Virus record (IMG/VR): IMGVR_UViG_3300020430_000100
Span: 1-22,754 of that record
Length of the DNA: 22,754 bases
From: a virus
Direction: 5' to 3' (one strand)
Positions within the stretch are counted from its first letter, which is position 1. The number at the start of each line of letters is the position of its first letter. Of this stretch, positions 2,624 through 22,691 are shown piece after piece. Under the pieces are notes generated by a model that did no database searches, was not told the DNA's origin, and was given only the letters and a program-made list of their open reading frames with translations. Both the position numbers and the translations under genes were made by a program.

Positions 2624-2849
2624 CTTTCTCTACCAATTTTACTAATAAATCTTTAATCTCATGCATTTCAGATTTTAATATATTTATCTGTCTTGTTGCA
2701 TCTCTTAATTCATCTTTTTGTTGTTGAACTGCTCTTGACCTCTTAACAGCAGCGACATAAGCACTTCTTGAAGTATTTATTATCGCTTTTGAATTTACAT
2801 CTCTTACAAGATGTTCGTGTCCTTCAACTTTTAAATATTCTTCACTCAT
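2613..2849 (-). CDS. Small coiled-coil protein conserved in marine T4-like phages (78 aa)
   Basis: The protein opens MSEEYLKVEGHEHLVRD and then becomes a long charged helix (about residues 28-75), with a heptad-like segment INILKSEMHEIKDLLVKLVE suggesting a coiled coil. Proteins beginning 'EYLKVEGH..LVRD' followed by a helix occur among the structural genes of T4-like cyanophages (from memory; no function is assigned that I know of). Start and stop are both coupled: the ATG shares one base with the stop of the 2250-aa gene, and the 3' end overlaps the next gene by 11 bases. I infer a small assembly factor or minor virion subunit, for example a helical oligomer acting as an adaptor; this is not shown. 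Confidence 0.8.
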   Translation of the reverse strand: MSEEYLKVEGHEHLVRDVNSKAIINTSRSAYVAAVKRSRAVQQQKDELRDATRQINILKSEMHEIKDLLVKLVEKDGR

Positions 2850-5800
2850 TATGTTGCCAATGCGATAGCACGCAAGTCCTTAATTCTAGGTGGTTCTGAA
2901 CTATTTGATGACTGCATACGAATCTTAATTGCAAATGCAGTAAATTCTTCTAAATCATTTGCACTATATTCGTATTCAATAAAGTCATCATCAGTAGTTG
3001 AGTCGTTAGTAGTAACATCTGGCCCACCAGTTGTGTTGAAAAATCTGAAACCTAGTTCATCAAAATCTGATTCATCATCTGAACGAAGTATTTTAAACAT
3101 GACTTGTATCTCTGCGTCTGCAAATCTTACAGCAGTATGTAATACCTTGAGTGCAGTAGCAGGATTTTTAAGTGTAACTTTTCTAGTTACATAAACTGAT
3201 TCTGTACTGTCACCATCTGGTTCAGTAGGTGCGACAAAGTCTGAAGTTGGGAATACACCAGAACTACTATCAATGTTATCAATTCTATTTGCAAAAGCAA
3301 CGATAGACTTTCTATCTAAATCAATGACTGGTGATAAGTTTTCTTGAGTTGTTCCCATAACAAGGTCAAGGAAGAACGACTTACTACCACTTAGTTCATT
3401 TGTTTCGTTAATTTGAGATGCAACCATTTTAGGATTATCAAAAAAGAAATTCTCTCCCAGAGTTATGTTTACTTTCTTATTAGAAGCAAGAGATGCAGTA
3501 TCCAGAGATGTTTCTGCACCACCAGGCGACCTACCAGAAGTTGCTCTAATTGAACTAGACAATGTAGTGTTTGGGTGTATGATAGTTGGTAATAATGTTT
3601 GCATACCATCCATCTGTGCATTTTCTGTTGCGACCACAGCGTTACCACCACCAACTGATACAGATGCGTCTGCACTTGTAGTTGTATTGATTGTATAGTA
3701 ATCTAAATTTTGATTTGCAATTGCAGTATGAGTTTTATTAATCTGGTCAAGAGGAATACCATTTAACTGATATAACTCAACGGTTGTACCGTTAGCATGA
3801 GCAGTTGCACTAGTACCATCTTGTCCTCTTGTCAAACTTGTAATTGCAGTTGTTCCAGCACCACCACTTTGAGTACCGAACATTATCTCATTACCAATCT
3901 TCAAGTAAATTCTAGAAGAGAGATTACTTGCTTCAAAACCAGTTCCAGATGTAAGTGTTAAACTAGTTGCACTATTTGTAATCGCACCATTAAGTGTTGT
4001 TGACGTATCAGACTTTACACCAGAGATAGTTACATTATTTTGGTTTGCAAACATATGGTGGTCTTCATGTAAAATTTTAACAACATTACTACTTGCAGTA
4101 AATCTTAGTGGGTCATTACCAAGAGTTTTACTTGGAAGAACATCATTGACCAAAGTTAGAGTTCCACTTGTGCCAGTTTCAAAACTTGCTCTATGAACAG
4201 TAAACTTTAAATCTTCAAAGTCATATGCAGACCATGTAGTATTATTCTGTGATTTAAATAACACACCAAGATATGGTTGTTCAGAAACAGTTCTAGTTCC
4301 ACCAATATCTGTTTCACCCATTCTTGAAATCCATGCAAAGTATTTGTCAGAGTCGGACTGAAGAACGATACAATATTCTACACCGTTTCTAACATACACT
4401 GGTGATTTAAATTTAAATGATGTCTGAAAAGATGCATTATTATTAATATTAACCCTTGACAATGTTTTACCAGAGATTGCTCTTAATGATGGAGATGCAA
4501 CTTTTAATAATGTATCACTAACAATTTCTGTTACTGTAGTAGTAAGTGCTTGTGTATCTCTTCCTGCCTGACCAGCTGTTCCTACATCAGAGTTTCCAGC
4601 ACCCTCAATAGTGATTGGACAACCGACAAACAATTCAGTAAAATTAGTATTAGTACCAGCAACATCAATTGAACCATTACTCATTGCAACTGTACCATCT
4701 TCAAATGGTTGATAAACTACAGTACCAAAAGGTAATGCCTTTACTGTGGGATAACCATTTTCCATTTCACGAATTTGACAAGTTACTGGAATAGATGGGT
4801 CTTTACCTTGGAAGAACACATCAATTTTTGTAATATATTCTCCACCCTCTGCTTGGGGCATAATGGATTGTGCAAGCGGATCCCACCACCCAACAACTTC
4901 ATCTCTAAAGTCTGTTCTCGTAACATTCTCTGTTGTAGAAACATTTCTAACCTCAACTCTTGCGTTTCTAGTTGCAATAATTCTTTCTTGAATATTTCTA
5001 AGAATACCTCTAGCAGAATAAGTTGCTTGTGCAAAAGTTTCTGGTTCTGGACTAATCTGATTTGTAGCAGAAGATGTTAATCTGAATACTCTTTCACCAG
5101 TTCTAAATCTTGGATTACCAGCAACATTAGGGTCTGGAATTGAGAAGACACCTTCTAACTTACCAAATCCATTTGAGAACATTGCACCACCAGCAGATGT
5201 TACAGTACCAGTACCACCAACAGATGGTGTTACATTTGCAGTAACATTTTGTTTATCAAAGAATGGATACATTCTAGTCAAAGGTTTTAGACCAGTTACT
5301 TTGAACGTAACATTTCTTGCACGAATAAAAGGAATAAGTGCAGTTGATACTAATCTATCTCCCTCTGACCGTCTATCAATTTGTGGCACAACATTAGTTT
5401 GAATACCTTGTCTAGTTCTAGTTCCAGTTTGAGTTGTTGTAACTCTTTGAAGAACTGCACGACCTCTTGGTTGACCTAAGTTAATAAATCTATGTTCTCT
5501 AAATCTACCACCTCTTGTAGTTGAAGTACCAGACCATTGAGTTTGCCATGCGTTCCACACAGTACCTATTGCGTTTCTATTTTGTGCAAAGACTGTATCA
5601 AAGTTACCCTCACGATTAATAACAAGTGCTGGAAGTCTGTTTACTTCAAACCACTCATCACCAGATGGACTTAATTCACAAATACCTGCCCATGAGAAAT
5701 TGAGAACTGGGTTTAGATTTTCAATTCTAGTTGCATAAGGTTGTTGAATACTTATAATCTCATCATACGGAAGAGTAATTAAGTCACCAGTTTTTTGATA

Positions 5801-8800
5801 CTTATCAAGAGTTCTTTGGGCATCAGTTGTATTTTCTTCTAGTAGTGAAACACCTTTCATAAAATACTTTGGTCTTAACTCTTGATTTTCCATATCAATC
5901 GCAACACGATAGTCTGGGTGTTGAACATCACCTATTGCATGACCACCAAAGTTATCAACTAAGAAACCAGATTTAAATCTATCTAATCCATTTGCATCTT
6001 GTACTTGAAAAGACTCTGCATCTTTTTCTAATAGTGAAAGAGCAGTATAATATTCGATATTATTAATTCTATCTTCAAGTCTACCAATATCTCTCATTGT
6101 ATATCGTTTGTTTGTTTCTTTAGTTAATTTTGCATCATCAATATTGAGAAGATAAGCAGGCAAAGTAATTTCAGAAATCAACATGGACTTTTGTAAATCT
6201 TCTGGTGGTTCTGGATTTTCAGCAGGAGTTCCTTGTTGAACTTTGAACTCACCCTTTTCAGTTAAGAAAAGTAAATCTACACGACCAAGAAAAAATTCAA
6301 AATCATATGCGATAGTTGAATTGTCTTTTGGAATTAGAATTTCAGATGCAGTACCAACATTATATGCTCTGGCAGCGAAGTTAAATGAGAAACCAGTAAT
6401 ATTATCAGCAGTATATTGACCACTATTTCTAGTTGCAGTAGTTTTTGCAATATCTCCAACCTTTGGTCTGAAGTCAATTGCATTTCTTAAATCATATTCA
6501 CCAGTAGGTTCTCTAACCTCTGGGTCAACTCTTGTTGCAGAGTATGTAAGAATATCTTTGTAGTCGATTGCACTATATGAGTCTACTGTGAAGAAATCAC
6601 CAGCACCGTGTTCAAAGTAATCAAACACTATTGAGATTCTACCAGTAGGTGCAGTTGCTCCTGCTTTTCTAATTATCCTACCGACATCATAAAAGTTATC
6701 TCTTTGTCCAGTATCTAAAATAAATCTATTTGTAATATTTTTTGAACCAGCAGTCAAAGTTCCAACTGTTGCAGTCGCACCAGATGTCTGTCCAGTAATT
6801 GTTTCACCAGAAGAAAAGTCCTTTGCATTTTTTACTATATATGTGATTGGACTTGTTGTTCCGATAATCAATGCTTGTGCATTACTCGTACCACCAACAA
6901 TTCTTTCACCCTTAGTGAATGTGCCAGATATACCAGTTGCAGTAAACTGTGGAAGTGCTGGGTCTGCACTTGTACTTTCTGAATCAAAGATTGCATGAAT
7001 TCTAGTTGTATCACCTTTACCAAGTGAAATGTCTTTATCTTTTGCATCAACACCAAACACATGAGATTGATTATTACCAGAAATATTATTTACAAGAACA
7101 ATATGAGCAGGAACTTTAGTTTTAACTTTATGTTCGGCAGCAGTTCTTCTTACAGTAGTTAAAAGTTTTACTTTAATACCATTCGCATTGAAAACGGTTG
7201 TGTTTGTAATTGTTAATTGATTACCACTAATATTAAAACTTGATGTACTTGCAGTTAAATTAATAACATCACCGTCTGCACAACCACCAGCACTATTGTT
7301 ATCAAGAACTACTGCAATGTAATCTACATTAGATGCAGATTGGAAAGTTTCATTTGCAGCTGCAGTAACAGCAATTTGTCCACTACCGTTTGAAGTTGTA
7401 ACATATTGTCTACGAACAGTTAATGCAGTAACAGAGTTGTTACTATTTGAATCTGTTTTTAAAGTCTTGATATTATTTTTTCTTAATTTACGAAGTAAAA
7501 TATTTCTATTAGTATCTTGTATTGCTGGTCTAGTTCTAGTTACTGGAACAGTAGTTGTAACAGAGCCAGGCGCAACTGTAACTGCTAAAGATGTATCAGA
7601 GGAAATAGTATTTACAATTCTAGTACCGATACCACTGATATTAATTACATCACCAGCACGAAGTTCAGTTTGGAAAAGAGTTCCAAAACCAGTTACAGTA
7701 GTTCCAGAACCAGCAGTTGAAACTGTACCAGTTAAAGTTTTTGTCGTATTAAGAACAAGGTCAGCAGTAAAGTCTTCATCAGAGTTTGTTGGGTCATCCA
7801 TAAAAACTTGTTTAACTTGGTCAAACTGTTTTTGTGCAACACTAGATACTGTTATAGCAGTATTATCACTTTTTTTAATTTGACCATTAGTTTCATCAGA
7901 TGAGGAAGATAATAAATTATCTGTTGTTAAGAATGTTCCCACAACATTCGTAAGATGAAGAATTGTATTTTGAACACTATGAACAAAACCAGTTGCACCA
8001 GAAACAGTACCAGTAACTTTTGCACCAGTTGGTACATGGTTTCCGTCTGGAACAGCACTTAAAACAACATTCGTAAACATACGAATATCGAAAAGATATA
8101 AATTGAACTGAGCAACTTGACCACCAGAACCACCGTGTGCTAATTTATTATCAGAGTTTGCATCAAGACCAGATGCGTGTTCAAATGCTCTTGCTCTTGC
8201 AATACCAATTTCTGCACCAGCACCACTTCCTCTAGAAGAAGTAGCAGCATCTCTTAATGAAATTTGTCTATATGGAACTGCAATTTCAGATGCACTATTT
8301 TTACTTGAGATGTCAGGCCCACCATATACATTTGTTACTCTAACAAAGTTACCAACTTCTGCGTTAGTAATTGCACTATCAAATTCTTCAGTTGTTCTAG
8401 GTTTTTCAACATCAATAAACTTGGGAGCAACAGTTTCAATTTCATATCCACGAACATATGCCTTACCAGGCGATACTTGGATATTTAAGAAATTTTCAGA
8501 TGCAGTGTTACCATCATCAGTAGTATTACCACTTGCATAAACACCTTCATTTAATCCGTCATCTAAGTTTTCTCTTAAATCAATACCAAAATCTTTTACC
8601 GTGTAGTTACCAGATTCATCAAAAGTTCTTCTTGCAAATGTTTCACTAAGAATAGAGTAATCTGTATTTCTTGCAATCTCTTGAATAACACCATTTTTAA
8701 TCTGAGCAATCTCTACAAAATTTTCATCAGCAGCAGAACCAAGTGCAAGTTTAGAAAGTGTTAATGTGTATTGTAATCTGTGAGCACCCTTTGCATTTTC

Positions 8801-9601
8801 ATTTGAAGAACCAGTTGCATTGTCTAACAATGAACTATCTGATTCTGGTGTAACTAAAGTTTCTGTTACAGCAAGACCAACTCTATAAGATGGTGAATTA
8901 GTATATTTGTCAAGAACAATTCTTTGTTTTTCAACTCTTACAAAAGTACCCCTAATAAAGTAAACACCAGTTTCTATACTCGCAGAAGAACCGATTGCAG
9001 TTGCACTTGATGCTTGTAAAGTTGCAGAGGCAACATTTGCATTAATTGTAGTTGCAGAACCACCACTTGGCGTATAAGTAATCGCTGTATCAGCAGAAAT
9101 ATTTTCACCATTTACAAATTCAGTTGTAACACCAGCAGTAGCACCACCAGCAGTATTAGTTGCTGTTTCTAAATATTTAACATAAAGTGTCGCTGGGTCA
9201 GTACTTGTAGCGGCATCAAAACCTATAACTCTTGCTTTTACACCAGAGGTTGAACCAGTTATGATAACACCCTTTTTTGCATTTGCATCTTGGGGGTCTG
9301 ACAGATTTGTATTTTCTGAGTATTGTTGTAAATAGTCTGCGATAGAAACTGCATTAAATGTTGACTGTAGTTTGACTGCATAGTATTCATTAATATATCC
9401 AAACTGGCCAGGCACAACAAGTGAACCCTCTTTGAACATATGTCTACCATGTCTTTCTACTTGATTTTGTAAAATAGACTGAAGTGTTGTTAGTTCTCTT
9501 GCCTGAACTGCAAAGCCAGGACGAAAAAGAACCCTATGAAAATTATCGGTTACATCAAAATCATCATGATATGGTGCAACATTTAAATCGGTTTTTTGCA
9601 T
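2849..9601 (-). CDS. Giant DUF4815 baseplate/tail structural protein (2250 aa)
   Basis: This is the largest gene here. The N-terminal 80 residues (MQKTDLNVAPYHDDFD, then FHRVLFRPGFAVQARELTTL) match the DUF4815 family as I remember it, whose members are virion proteins of T4-like and other large phages. Further in are 'SG[AV].A.V' beta modules (about residues 110-165, 550-590, 940-1010), a 'DFRPKVGD' segment near 1060, a helical stretch (about 1170-1290), and a conserved-looking WWDPLAQSIMPQAEGG block near 1569 followed by a 'CQIREMENGYPT' beta region. The C-terminus is more beta-rich repeat. No protease, lyase or lysozyme motif is obvious. It follows gp8 directly (3-base gap), in the position of T4 gp9/gp10, so a peripheral baseplate or fibre-attachment role is likely (inference). 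No dedicated promoter is visible; it should be co-transcribed with gp8. Confidence 0.85.
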   Translation of the reverse strand: MQKTDLNVAPYHDDFDVTDNFHRVLFRPGFAVQARELTTLQSILQNQVERHGRHMFKEGSLVVPGQFGYINEYYAVKLQSTFNAVSIADYLQQYSENTNLSDPQDANAKKGVIITGSTSGVKARVIGFDAATSTDPATLYVKYLETATNTAGGATAGVTTEFVNGENISADTAITYTPSGGSATTINANVASATLQASSATAIGSSASIETGVYFIRGTFVRVEKQRIVLDKYTNSPSYRVGLAVTETLVTPESDSSLLDNATGSSNENAKGAHRLQYTLTLSKLALGSAADENFVEIAQIKNGVIQEIARNTDYSILSETFARRTFDESGNYTVKDFGIDLRENLDDGLNEGVYASGNTTDDGNTASENFLNIQVSPGKAYVRGYEIETVAPKFIDVEKPRTTEEFDSAITNAEVGNFVRVTNVYGGPDISSKNSASEIAVPYRQISLRDAATSSRGSGAGAEIGIARARAFEHASGLDANSDNKLAHGGSGGQVAQFNLYLFDIRMFTNVVLSAVPDGNHVPTGAKVTGTVSGATGFVHSVQNTILHLTNVVGTFLTTDNLLSSSSDETNGQIKKSDNTAITVSSVAQKQFDQVKQVFMDDPTNSDEDFTADLVLNTTKTLTGTVSTAGSGTTVTGFGTLFQTELRAGDVINISGIGTRIVNTISSDTSLAVTVAPGSVTTTVPVTRTRPAIQDTNRNILLRKLRKNNIKTLKTDSNSNNSVTALTVRRQYVTTSNGSGQIAVTAAANETFQSASNVDYIAVVLDNNSAGGCADGDVINLTASTSSFNISGNQLTITNTTVFNANGIKVKLLTTVRRTAAEHKVKTKVPAHIVLVNNISGNNQSHVFGVDAKDKDISLGKGDTTRIHAIFDSESTSADPALPQFTATGISGTFTKGERIVGGTSNAQALIIGTTSPITYIVKNAKDFSSGETITGQTSGATATVGTLTAGSKNITNRFILDTGQRDNFYDVGRIIRKAGATAPTGRISIVFDYFEHGAGDFFTVDSYSAIDYKDILTYSATRVDPEVREPTGEYDLRNAIDFRPKVGDIAKTTATRNSGQYTADNITGFSFNFAARAYNVGTASEILIPKDNSTIAYDFEFFLGRVDLLFLTEKGEFKVQQGTPAENPEPPEDLQKSMLISEITLPAYLLNIDDAKLTKETNKRYTMRDIGRLEDRINNIEYYTALSLLEKDAESFQVQDANGLDRFKSGFLVDNFGGHAIGDVQHPDYRVAIDMENQELRPKYFMKGVSLLEENTTDAQRTLDKYQKTGDLITLPYDEIISIQQPYATRIENLNPVLNFSWAGICELSPSGDEWFEVNRLPALVINREGNFDTVFAQNRNAIGTVWNAWQTQWSGTSTTRGGRFREHRFINLGQPRGRAVLQRVTTTQTGTRTRQGIQTNVVPQIDRRSEGDRLVSTALIPFIRARNVTFKVTGLKPLTRMYPFFDKQNVTANVTPSVGGTGTVTSAGGAMFSNGFGKLEGVFSIPDPNVAGNPRFRTGERVFRLTSSATNQISPEPETFAQATYSARGILRNIQERIIATRNARVEVRNVSTTENVTRTDFRDEVVGWWDPLAQSIMPQAEGGEYITKIDVFFQGKDPSIPVTCQIREMENGYPTVKALPFGTVVYQPFEDGTVAMSNGSIDVAGTNTNFTELFVGCPITIEGAGNSDVGTAGQAGRDTQALTTTVTEIVSDTLLKVASPSLRAISGKTLSRVNINNNASFQTSFKFKSPVYVRNGVEYCIVLQSDSDKYFAWISRMGETDIGGTRTVSEQPYLGVLFKSQNNTTWSAYDFEDLKFTVHRASFETGTSGTLTLVNDVLPSKTLGNDPLRFTASSNVVKILHEDHHMFANQNNVTISGVKSDTSTTLNGAITNSATSLTLTSGTGFEASNLSSRIYLKIGNEIMFGTQSGGAGTTAITSLTRGQDGTSATAHANGTTVELYQLNGIPLDQINKTHTAIANQNLDYYTINTTTSADASVSVGGGNAVVATENAQMDGMQTLLPTIIHPNTTLSSSIRATSGRSPGGAETSLDTASLASNKKVNITLGENFFFDNPKMVASQINETNELSGSKSFFLDLVMGTTQENLSPVIDLDRKSIVAFANRIDNIDSSSGVFPTSDFVAPTEPDGDSTESVYVTRKVTLKNPATALKVLHTAVRFADAEIQVMFKILRSDDESDFDELGFRFFNTTGGPDVTTNDSTTDDDFIEYEYSANDLEEFTAFAIKIRMQSSNSSEPPRIKDLRAIALAT

Positions 9602-20839: not shown

Positions 20840-21136
20840 CTATCCCCCAGCAAAAACATTAGGTGAACCAGACGCTGATGCGTTAGGCACGAAACTTCCA
20901 TGTCCACCAGTTGCATCACCTTTTCTATGAACACTAATACCATTAACTTTTACAGTAGAACTTCCACCAGTTGCTGGGTCACCACACGCAGTTGCATCAC
21001 CAACTCTAACTACTGACGCACCATTTACTTTTACATCTGATGAACCAGACGCATATGCTGTTTGGTGAAATGGATTAGGTGTAGGACTTGCATGACCAAC
21101 ATGGGTATCTAATCCTACTCTTGTAACTTCAGGCAT
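20840..21136 (-). CDS. 5.4: PAAR-repeat spike-tip protein, gp5.4-like (98 aa)
   Basis: The short protein carries repeated 'VKVNGxSVxRxGD' units (about residues 35-47 and 62-74) with interspersed PAAR-type turns, His12, His15, Cys51 and His79, candidate metal ligands. PAAR proteins form a sharp, metal-stabilised cone that caps the gp5 needle in contractile tails and type VI secretion spikes; in T4 this is gp5.4 (97 aa, similar length). The gene lies immediately downstream of the gp5 spike gene (8-base gap), exactly the expected partner. The role is to sharpen and seal the membrane-piercing needle. Confidence 0.9.
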   Translation of the reverse strand: MPEVTRVGLDTHVGHASPTPNPFHQTAYASGSSDVKVNGASVVRVGDATACGDPATGGSSTVKVNGISVHRKGDATGGHGSFVPNASASGSPNVFAGG

Positions 21137-21144
21137 AGTAACTC

Positions 21145-22431
21145 CTAGTTTAAATTAATAAGTGGTGCGTCTGCATCAATCTCTGTACCAGCATTAATAT
21201 CCATCAGTGTTCCAGCATTAAATGTAACAGAGTCTTCAGAACTAATTACCATTGGTTGAGCAGATTTAAGATTTAAACTTGTTCCAGTAATCATTGTTGT
21301 TTTACCAGTAATAGAAGATTGTGCTAAGTTCTTTGTTGCAGTAATCTTGATATCACTTAACACTAATTGACTATAATCTTTTCCTACTGTTTTTTTATCA
21401 TTACCCTTTACGTTTTCTGTGCGATTACCTTTCAGTAATACTTCTGTATCTGCACCAACTGTTTGAACAAACTTATCAGAAATGTTTTCTGCAAAAGTTC
21501 CTCGTATCTCTTGTTGATGATTACCCCCTGCTTCACCAGCACCAACTTTGATTAATTTATTCTTGTGTATCTTTTGTGTATAATCACCCTCAACCTCAAG
21601 AACATAATCACCTTTAATAAGTTGTCTAACATTACCATCTACAGTTAGATTAACAGAACCTTTGACATAACAGTTTCTAGAACCAACAATTATTTCGTAA
21701 TCATCTCCAACAACTTTAACAACTTTACTACCGTCTGGGTGTATCTCTTCAAATGTTCCGCTACGGTGATAAGTAAAAAGTCTTTCACCCTCTGGACTAT
21801 CATCTATCTCATGTATGTGTCCGCTTTCAGATTCATGTACATGATTAAATGGGTAAAAAGAAACGGTGTTTGATTTTGCATCTAACTCATTCCATGTTGA
21901 ACGACTTTCTTGTACAGCAGCATCTTCAACCGTGGGTATATATGGTTTAGTTGCGATAGGAACTTCTTGTATCTGCGACTTCTTCCTTGTGTATAATGAT
22001 GAGTGAGTTTCGCCAACTAGACCTTGTGCAAGTCTATTGACATCATTTTCATTTACAGTTTTTGGATAAACTGCATTGGGGTCATTAAAACCTTTATTAC
22101 CGTCTGGTAATTCTAAATTAAATCCAGGCAGAGAACCTAAAATAATTGGTTCTTGAAACAGAGGTGGGTCACGAAAGAAACCTAACACCCAAGAACCCTC
22201 AACTAAGAAAGGTGGTGTTTCACCCATACCATTCATTGATGGTACAGTAGTTGGATTCATTACCCATGCCCAAGGTAAATCTTCTGTAGGTATATCGTCC
22301 TTATCTTCAGTATGATAACCTACGGCACGAACACGAACACGACCAAGTTTGTCTGGGTCATCTCTATCTTCAACGACTCCAGTAAACCAAATAAATCCGT
22401 CTTTGCCTGTAATAAATTGTGTAGTATTCAT
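21145..22431 (-). CDS. 5: Baseplate spike gp5 homologue lacking the lysozyme domain (428 aa)
   Basis: Residues about 10-105 ('GFIWFTGVVEDRDDPDKLGR', 'VRVRAVGYH', then 'VEGSWVLGFFRDPPLFQEPI') are the gp5/VgrG-type OB-fold. Residues about 205-235 ('ESGHIHEIDDSPEGERLFTY' then 'HRSGTFEEIHPDGS') are the spike base, and from about 235 to the end regular 'VxGxxxxxxxGxx' repeats form the triple beta-helix needle. T4 gp5 is 575 aa with a lysozyme domain inserted between OB-fold and needle; here the intervening ~100 residues have no such catalytic text, so this is a non-enzymatic spike, as in many marine T4-like phages. The ATG lies only 5 bases from a late promoter core and has no clear Shine-Dalgarno, so the mRNA may be leaderless. 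It heads the whole minus-strand late cluster. Confidence 0.92.
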   Translation of the reverse strand: MNTTQFITGKDGFIWFTGVVEDRDDPDKLGRVRVRAVGYHTEDKDDIPTEDLPWAWVMNPTTVPSMNGMGETPPFLVEGSWVLGFFRDPPLFQEPIILGSLPGFNLELPDGNKGFNDPNAVYPKTVNENDVNRLAQGLVGETHSSLYTRKKSQIQEVPIATKPYIPTVEDAAVQESRSTWNELDAKSNTVSFYPFNHVHESESGHIHEIDDSPEGERLFTYHRSGTFEEIHPDGSKVVKVVGDDYEIIVGSRNCYVKGSVNLTVDGNVRQLIKGDYVLEVEGDYTQKIHKNKLIKVGAGEAGGNHQQEIRGTFAENISDKFVQTVGADTEVLLKGNRTENVKGNDKKTVGKDYSQLVLSDIKITATKNLAQSSITGKTTMITGTSLNLKSAQPMVISSEDSVTFNAGTLMDINAGTEIDADAPLINLN

Positions 22432-22454: not shown

Positions 22455-22465
22455 GATACTAAATA
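22455..22465 (+). promoter_or_regulatory. Candidate promoter element for the plus-strand riboswitch RNA
   Basis: GATACT at 22455-22460 could be a sigma70-type -10 hexamer, and the overlapping ACTAAATA (22458-22465) resembles a degenerate late promoter core. Either would start RNA at about 22467-22472, just before the aptamer begins at 22474. There is no good -35 hexamer at 22432-22437. This is positional inference only. Confidence 0.3.
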
Positions 22466-22473
22466 GTAGTAAT

Positions 22474-22521
22474 CGTTCATCTATGCATATAGACGGAAGT
22501 AGGCAATCGCTGAAGGAACGC
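22474..22521 (+). ncRNA. Glutamine riboswitch aptamer (glnA / Downstream-peptide class)
   Basis: The sequence contains the conserved core shared by the glutamine-binding glnA and Downstream-peptide RNA motifs as I remember it: CGTTCATC, then GACGGAAGTAGG, then TGAAGGAACGC. It folds accordingly: P1 pairs CGTTC (22474-22478) with GAACG (22516-22520); P2 pairs TCTAT (22480-22484) with ATAGA (22489-22493) around GCAT; P3 pairs GGC (22502-22504) with GCT (22509-22511, one G-U) around AATC. The most conserved bases (ACGGAAGTAG and GAAGG) lie in the junction. These RNAs bind L-glutamine and control nearby genes. The short basic-peptide ORF just downstream, with no glutamine-synthetase gene, fits the Downstream-peptide (glutamine-II) context; the subclass needs a covariance model. 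The hit is strong by conserved core plus three helices. Confidence 0.87.
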
Positions 22522-22527
22522 ACTTAA

Positions 22528-22548
22528 CTTTTGGTAACTAATCGAAAG
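22528..22548 (+). promoter_or_regulatory. Possible expression-platform hairpin covering the Shine-Dalgarno
   Basis: CTTTTG (22528-22533) can pair with CGAAAG (22543-22548), six pairs with one G-U around a 9-base loop. This would occupy the first half of the AAAGGAG ribosome site of the 33-codon ORF. It is a plausible translational switch element lying 7 bases after the aptamer, but the stem is weak and I cannot compute its energy. Confidence 0.35.
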
Positions 22549-22553
22549 GAGAG
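22545..22553 (+). promoter_or_regulatory. Strong Shine-Dalgarno of the 33-codon ORF
   Basis: AAAGGAGAG lies with GGAG 6 bases before the ATG at 22558. It is one of the best ribosome sites in the window, it selects this ATG as the start, and it is the obvious target of riboswitch control. Confidence 0.8.
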
Positions 22554-22557
22554 TGTT

Positions 22558-22659
22558 ATGAATACGATTATTTTCCAATTAATCAAACTACAAAGACAAT
22601 ATAAAAGAGAACAGAAATTGTGGACTCTTTATATGAGAAGTAGACTCCGTTCTGCATGA
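22558..22659 (+). CDS. Riboswitch-controlled basic micropeptide (33 aa)
   Basis: An ORF too short for most gene finders encodes MNTIIFQLIKLQRQYKREQK followed by LWTLYMRSRLRSA. It has eight Lys/Arg and one Glu, so it is strongly basic; the first half could form an amphipathic helix. It has a strong Shine-Dalgarno, lies directly downstream of the glutamine riboswitch, and is followed 5 bases later by a terminator, so the RNA appears dedicated to this peptide. Short basic peptides are the known cargo of Downstream-peptide RNAs. In cyanobacteria a related glutamine riboswitch controls a basic, Arg-dependent inhibitor of glutamine synthetase (IF17, with IF7 as the short paralogue). A similar role in the infected cell is an attractive hypothesis but I see no alignment that proves it. 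Confidence 0.72.
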   Translation: MNTIIFQLIKLQRQYKREQKLWTLYMRSRLRSA

Positions 22660-22660
22660 C

Positions 22661-22691
22661 AAAAAAAAGAGGGAACTTAGTTCCCTCTTTT
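22661..22691. terminator. Bidirectional intrinsic terminator (12-bp perfect stem)
   Basis: AAAAGAGGGAAC (22665-22676) pairs perfectly with GTTCCCTCTTTT (22680-22691) around a TTA loop. On the plus strand the stem ends in four Ts and closes the riboswitch-micropeptide RNA. On the minus strand the hairpin runs into eight Ts, so it is stronger in that direction and could also end a minus-strand gene entering from beyond the right edge. The two units would then be convergent here. Confidence 0.85.

Follow-up and report, generated by a model that had tools for sequence, protein, structure and literature searches.

A probable glutamine-ON riboswitch and micropeptide cassette in a T4-like marine phage and related viral contigs

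The viral fragment analysed here, a 22.75-kb record whose 22,754 nucleotides are together referred to as the window, carries a type 1 glutamine riboswitch aptamer directly upstream of a 33-codon open reading frame (ORF). These elements very probably constitute a late-expressed translational riboswitch cassette, in which glutamine would turn on the synthesis of a micropeptide payload. An initial sequence-only reading had proposed a self-contained glutamine riboswitch and micropeptide unit in a T4-like phage, and the present analysis supports that proposal.

The aptamer and the cassette around it

An Rfam covariance-model search of the whole window matched RF01739, the glnA-type glutamine riboswitch, at positions 22472–22524 of the plus strand. 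The match spans the full model (1–53), with a score of 63.5 bits (gathering cut-off 35) and an E-value, computed over the whole window, of 3.8e-12; RF01739 is the sole Rfam family above threshold within the window. All core bases of the consensus are kept. The three core motifs quoted in the sequence-only reading occur exactly at the positions listed in Table 1, and the P1, P2 and P3 helices that it described are borne out by the match; in P2 (UCUAU/AUAGA), the letters have changed while the pairing is preserved. The same reading had named the glnA and Downstream-peptide motifs together as the class. When the two models that it suggested were run, the glnA assignment held, whereas RF01704 (Downstream-peptide) gave no match in the window even at E 1, which rules out that class for this aptamer. 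By its sequence, the RNA at 22472–22524 is confirmed as a type 1 glutamine riboswitch aptamer.

Table 1. Features of the cassette and its divergent neighbour (window coordinates)
Feature	Position	Strand	Basis or detail
gp5-like baseplate hub/OB-domain protein, divergent neighbour	21145..22431	-	phrog_430, 4.7e-101
T4-late-promoter-like motif ACTAAATA (consensus TATAAATA)	22458..22465	+	8 nt before CGTTC
glnA-type (type 1) glutamine riboswitch aptamer	22472..22524	+	RF01739, 63.5 bits, E 3.8e-12
Aptamer P1	22474-22478/22516-22520	+	
Aptamer P2	22480-22484/22489-22493	+	
Aptamer P3	22502-22504/22509-22511	+	
Conserved core motif CGTTCATC	22474	+	
Conserved core motif GACGGAAGTAGG	22492	+	
Conserved core motif GAAGGAACGC	22512	+	
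Predicted Shine-Dalgarno-sequestering hairpin (expression platform)	22520..22556	+	RNAfold and covariation
Outer helix GCACUU/GAGUGU	22520-22525 with 22551-22556	+	pairs 0.89-1.0, ligand-free energy model
Inner 8-bp helix	22528-22535 with 22541-22548	+	RNAfold
Shine-Dalgarno AAAGGAGAG	22545..22553	+	sequence; just 5' of ATG
33-aa micropeptide ORF MNTIIFQLIKLQRQYKREQKLWTLYMRSRLRSA	22558..22659	+	ATG 22558, TGA 22657-22659, 33 codons
Terminator-like hairpin, 12-bp stem with GAGGGAAC/GUUCCCUC, then U run	22665..22691	+	folding energy

The Shine-Dalgarno sequence and the 33-codon ORF were found downstream of the aptamer, in agreement with the initial reading, and the unit is indeed divergent from gp5. 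A terminator-like hairpin appears to close this monocistronic unit. The earlier claim of an intrinsic terminator stands as far as hairpin stability goes (dG -16.2, z -5.0, with none of 200 shuffles equally stable); the hairpin is absent from the output of the strict terminator scan. The gp5-adjacent placement of the cassette is repeated in about 11 related contigs, and elsewhere the neighbouring genes are others. The window also contains a small glycine-rich PAAR-like ORF adjoining gp5 (20840–21136, minus strand) and a 2250-aa ORF (2849–9601, minus strand). The window gp6 is 50–52% identical to gp6 of the OM43 phage Melnitz and the SAR11 phage Mosig, but only about 36% identical to those of cyanophages. 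By this gp6 affinity the T4-like phage is pelagimyophage-like, and it probably infects a streamlined marine heterotroph rather than a cyanobacterium.

A peptide-based scan of IMG/VR with the DNA encoding the start of the peptide matched 25 contigs. Twenty of them hold true homologues, all with the aptamer directly upstream (20/20), and the remaining five are unrelated chance matches in which the aptamer is absent. The dN/dS ratio is about 0.24 in the 33-aa subfamily of the window (four sequences only). Beyond the window's family it lies at 0.08–0.43 in seven others, and it is 0.19 for a 50-aa sister family represented by 32 sequences. Since the homologues always have the aptamer on their 5' side and are under purifying selection, the ORF is more than a chance occurrence and, on this sequence evidence, is a genuine coding sequence. 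The encoded peptide contains eight K/R residues and one E, and AlphaFold2 predicts a single helix spanning residues 2–32 (mean pLDDT 87.5). It has no match in PHROGs, Pfam or NCBIfam, and the Melnitz-type peptide family is likewise unmatched in these databases. Homology to the inactivating factor IF7 (NF052599) was rejected, as hmmscan found none and the hhalign profile comparison gave E 0.67. Among the viral peptide families, profile comparison indicates credible relatedness between C5 and C9 (E 1.4e-6) and between C9 and MDNYT (1e-4). Between the window family and C9 the comparison reaches no better than E 0.0015, close to the noise floor (0.009), and a single common ancestor of the peptide families is therefore not claimed.

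Viral breadth and candidate roles of the peptide

The viral set derives from three scans, namely an aptamer-only pattern (at least 120 stretches in viral contigs), a window-type leader (83 stretches), and the peptide-based scan described above. Together they yield at least about 200 aptamer-bearing viral contigs, in most of which the aptamer lies just 5' of a short ORF, usually at a distance of 20–40 nt among the matches listed. This number, together with the earlier reports of Melnitz and Mosig (PMC9004378), contradicts the initial remark that riboswitches are rare in phages. Among the matches listed, 145 distinct payload peptides can be grouped into about 15 families. DUF4278 (PF14105) is the payload of some sister cassettes, with matches of up to 3e-9; this domain forms the N-terminal part of IF17 and of riboswitch-controlled picocyanobacterial peptides (PMC6316151). 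In two sister cassettes (L105 and L015), a DUF4278-like start is fused to a basic mini-helix. These two and L036 encode mosaic micropeptides, which combine a DUF4278-like YRG start or segment with a basic helix and recall the two-part IF17. Tandem aptamers precede one micropeptide at many viral loci (L006, L010, L018, L030, L036, L044, L048, L053, L112 and others). Among named phages, DNA or peptide similarity identified Melnitz alone, through a weak but real aptamer match, and tblastn of three sister peptides against INPHARED found nothing.

A late-promoter-like motif precedes the aptamer. The T4 late promoter consensus is TATAAATA; the window copy departs from it by two changes, and many relatives read TATAAATA or CATAAATA at this site. 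A late-like motif occurs at most 26 nt upstream in 93 of the 140 distinct viral units listed (66%), against a background of 1.3% in random stretches of the same loci. It stands at a fixed distance, mostly ending 6–8 nt before CGTTC, at which the transcript would begin at the aptamer. The cassette is probably transcribed from a T4-like late promoter, with the aptamer forming the 5' end of the RNA.

As for the payload, its most likely function would be to damp host nitrogen assimilation when glutamine is plentiful, with glutamine synthetase as the first candidate target, because the leader design is common to the cyanobacterial glutamine-synthetase inactivating factors. This leading guess is based on the ligand, the direction of the switch, the gif-type leader, the occurrence of DUF4278 in sister cassettes, and a peptide that is small and basic. 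Small size and basicity are traits that the window peptide shares with the inactivating factors, and its glutamine-ON control is read only from the anatomy of the leader. Inactivation of glutamine synthetase itself is a serious possibility but short of probable, with the lack of detectable IF7 homology counting against it. Furthermore, the OM43 host of Melnitz is stated to lack glutamine synthesis (PMC9004378); if this is correct, glutamine synthetase is a less likely target in that host.

A rival to this view of the payload, although not of the switch, is that the peptide helps the phage take over the host or time lysis without any connection to nitrogen enzymes, glutamine acting only as a cue of host state. 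We regard it as about as likely as a glutamine synthetase target. The late promoter-like motifs, the insertion among late structural genes, the basic helix of the window peptide, and the variety of payload families behind one leader type are all in keeping with such a role, and lysis timing was speculated for the Melnitz riboswitch by the authors of PMC9004378. However, the leader design held in common with gif genes and the DUF4278 proteins of sister cassettes connect the system with peptides of nitrogen control, and the window peptide has no transmembrane-like stretch.

Expression platform and direction of the switch

RNAfold places the Shine-Dalgarno sequence of the window leader within a hairpin directly below P1. 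The first base of the masking helix is the last of P1, and the next base, right after P1, also belongs to it. Its strand pairs covary among the viral leaders (CACUU/GAGUG, CACCU/GGGUG, CAAUCU/AGAUUG and others). With identical strand pairs counted once, the 95 distinct strand pairs of the viral leaders listed were tested by swapping partners, and every swap fell short of the observed energy (z -11). When the leaders were grouped into 20 strand classes, each with one representative, none of 2000 partner swaps of the outer helix was as good. A first duplex test, in which the P1 strand and its flank were compared with shuffles, had given a weak signal (z -1.1), its register being too wide; the covariation became clear once the comparison was confined to the bases below P1 and partners were swapped. 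The window-type leader set was chosen by its exact leader and pooled into this test, and it is therefore not used alone to argue for leader conservation. In this model, the aptamer-linked expression platform is a covarying helix that adjoins P1 and masks the Shine-Dalgarno sequence.

A masking helix of -5 kcal/mol or lower is present in 76% of the viral leaders listed and in 100% of the cyanobacterial gif/DUF4278 leaders, but in 0% of the proteobacterial glnA/amtB/gltB leaders with the same aptamer, two of whose genes were checked by Pfam. The equivalent cyanobacterial helix occupies the identical place, pairing GCGCCUC with GAGGCG. In the S. elongatus aptamer structure of Ren et al. from 2015, a linchpin pair reportedly caps P1 and a short helix below P1 melts with the ligand, which fits an ON reading of the phage leader. 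In the absence of glutamine, GCACUU just 3' of P1 is predicted, with the support of covariation, to form a helix with GAGUGU that conceals the Shine-Dalgarno sequence. By analogy, glutamine would stabilize P1 and draw the base after it into the aptamer, upon which the helix below P1 would melt and free the ribosome site. The 33-aa basic helical peptide would then be translated.

The overlap between P1 and the masking helix is a single base (G22520), so that the two can coexist by secondary structure. Since they are almost compatible, we infer the ON direction from the S. elongatus structure and from the cyanobacterial leaders, which share the helix and among which the Synechocystis gifB leader and aptamer proved glutamine-ON in experiments (review PMC6316151). 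Of the states evaluated, the one containing both helices has the lowest energy (-19.6 versus -16.5 kcal/mol), a result that would also suit a glutamine-OFF switch, in which the ligand-stabilized P1 stacks on the masking helix and the peptide is off at high glutamine. Such a switch is unlikely, given that the cyanobacterial gif leaders have exactly this anatomy, the tested one being ON, and that the proteobacterial leaders, where OFF logic is expected, have no masking helix.

The glutamine-ON cassette can be set beside several known systems. Its full-length aptamer is that of type 1 riboswitches (RF01739), but here it belongs to a phage, probably heads a late transcript, and has a micropeptide as its target instead of glnA, amtB, gltB or gif genes. 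The cyanobacterial gifB and gifA leaders (IF17 and IF7) share the aptamer, the masking helix directly below P1 and a small basic payload; the window differs in a payload unrelated to IF7 by profile comparison and in the phage late promoter-like motif upstream. Units of a glutamine aptamer and a short ORF are known from cyanobacteria and marine metagenomes, and the Downstream-peptide (type 2, RF01704) units of marine picocyanobacteria likewise place an ORF of 17–100 aa after the aptamer (PMC2864571), although the aptamer class differs. Outside viruses, uncultured marine Alphaproteobacteria and their relatives carry RF01739-type aptamers 5' of glutamine synthetase, ammonium transporter and glutamate synthase-like genes (L305, L247, L261, L258, L336 and others). 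Such aptamers occur in 23 of the 32 genomes of one family, and a Pelagibacteraceae MAG is among the bacterial genomes that carry them; a review calls the glutamine riboswitch class restricted to cyanobacteria. In cyanobacteria, short IF7-like proteins (46–51 aa) are found directly behind glutamine aptamers besides the known gifB case (L255, L260, L281, L323).

The riboswitch target in Melnitz and the reach of the cassette

Glutamine riboswitches of the same aptamer class were reported earlier in the related phages Melnitz and Mosig, and that of Melnitz was assigned to the phage tmRNA, which it was said both to belong to and to control (PMC9004378). Directly after the Melnitz aptamer (46398–46446 of MZ577097) comes a 32-aa ORF that lacks annotation, MTLYQQWCYLKAQKEYRRRQKILMYFRIRLKG; it has the identical GGAGAGTGTTATG start and the same ribosome-binding leader as the window ORF. 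An annotated reverse-strand CDS covers this ORF (MZ577097.1, 46398–46593; L143, 1899–2094). Homologous ORFs follow the same aptamer in five further contigs. The Mosig aptamer precedes an annotated 51-aa hypothetical protein, compared with 33 aa in the window. In Melnitz, only the predicted 3' end of the called tmRNA reaches into the aptamer, and no tmRNA was found in the window or in the examined stretches of 13 MDNYT-family contigs. The Melnitz ORF and its homologues, the marginal overlap and the tmRNA-free relatives make the peptide more likely than the tmRNA to be the target of the Melnitz riboswitch. Regulation of the tmRNA with an incidental ORF, for which the location of the aptamer right after ssrA in Melnitz and relatives speaks (PMC9004378), is highly improbable and already contradicted in the tmRNA-free window, because the ORF and its Shine-Dalgarno leader are conserved, the ORFs are under purifying selection, and the aptamer lies 5' of the ORF but 3' of the tag-coding part. 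A short ORF behind a riboswitch might also be a leader peptide regulating downstream genes, but the terminator-like hairpin directly 3' of it and, in the gp5-adjoining relatives, a next gene on the opposite strand leave it nothing to lead, and we give this reading almost no credence.

The riboswitch class itself and its occurrence in marine phages were already known. As far as the part of the literature searched shows, four points are new: how widely phages carry the micropeptide cassette, the late promoter-like motif upstream of it, its covarying platform of gif type, and the Melnitz ORF missing from the annotation. An earlier, unseen report of these points is possible. For Melnitz, the published target of the riboswitch likely needs correction. 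In more general terms, the cassettes suggest that these phages read the nitrogen status of the host late in infection. A bolder and rather doubtful proposal is that T4-like marine phages carry widespread, interchangeable glutamine-ON late micropeptides that act as viral inhibitors of glutamine synthetase or nitrogen assimilation. They would be functionally convergent with the inactivating factors of cyanobacteria and would operate in heterotrophs from which such factors are not known. The cassettes supply a large set of testable peptides. If the proposal is true, abundant ocean phages would gauge host glutamine by RNA and answer with tiny proteins late in infection, directly linking infection to marine nitrogen flow.
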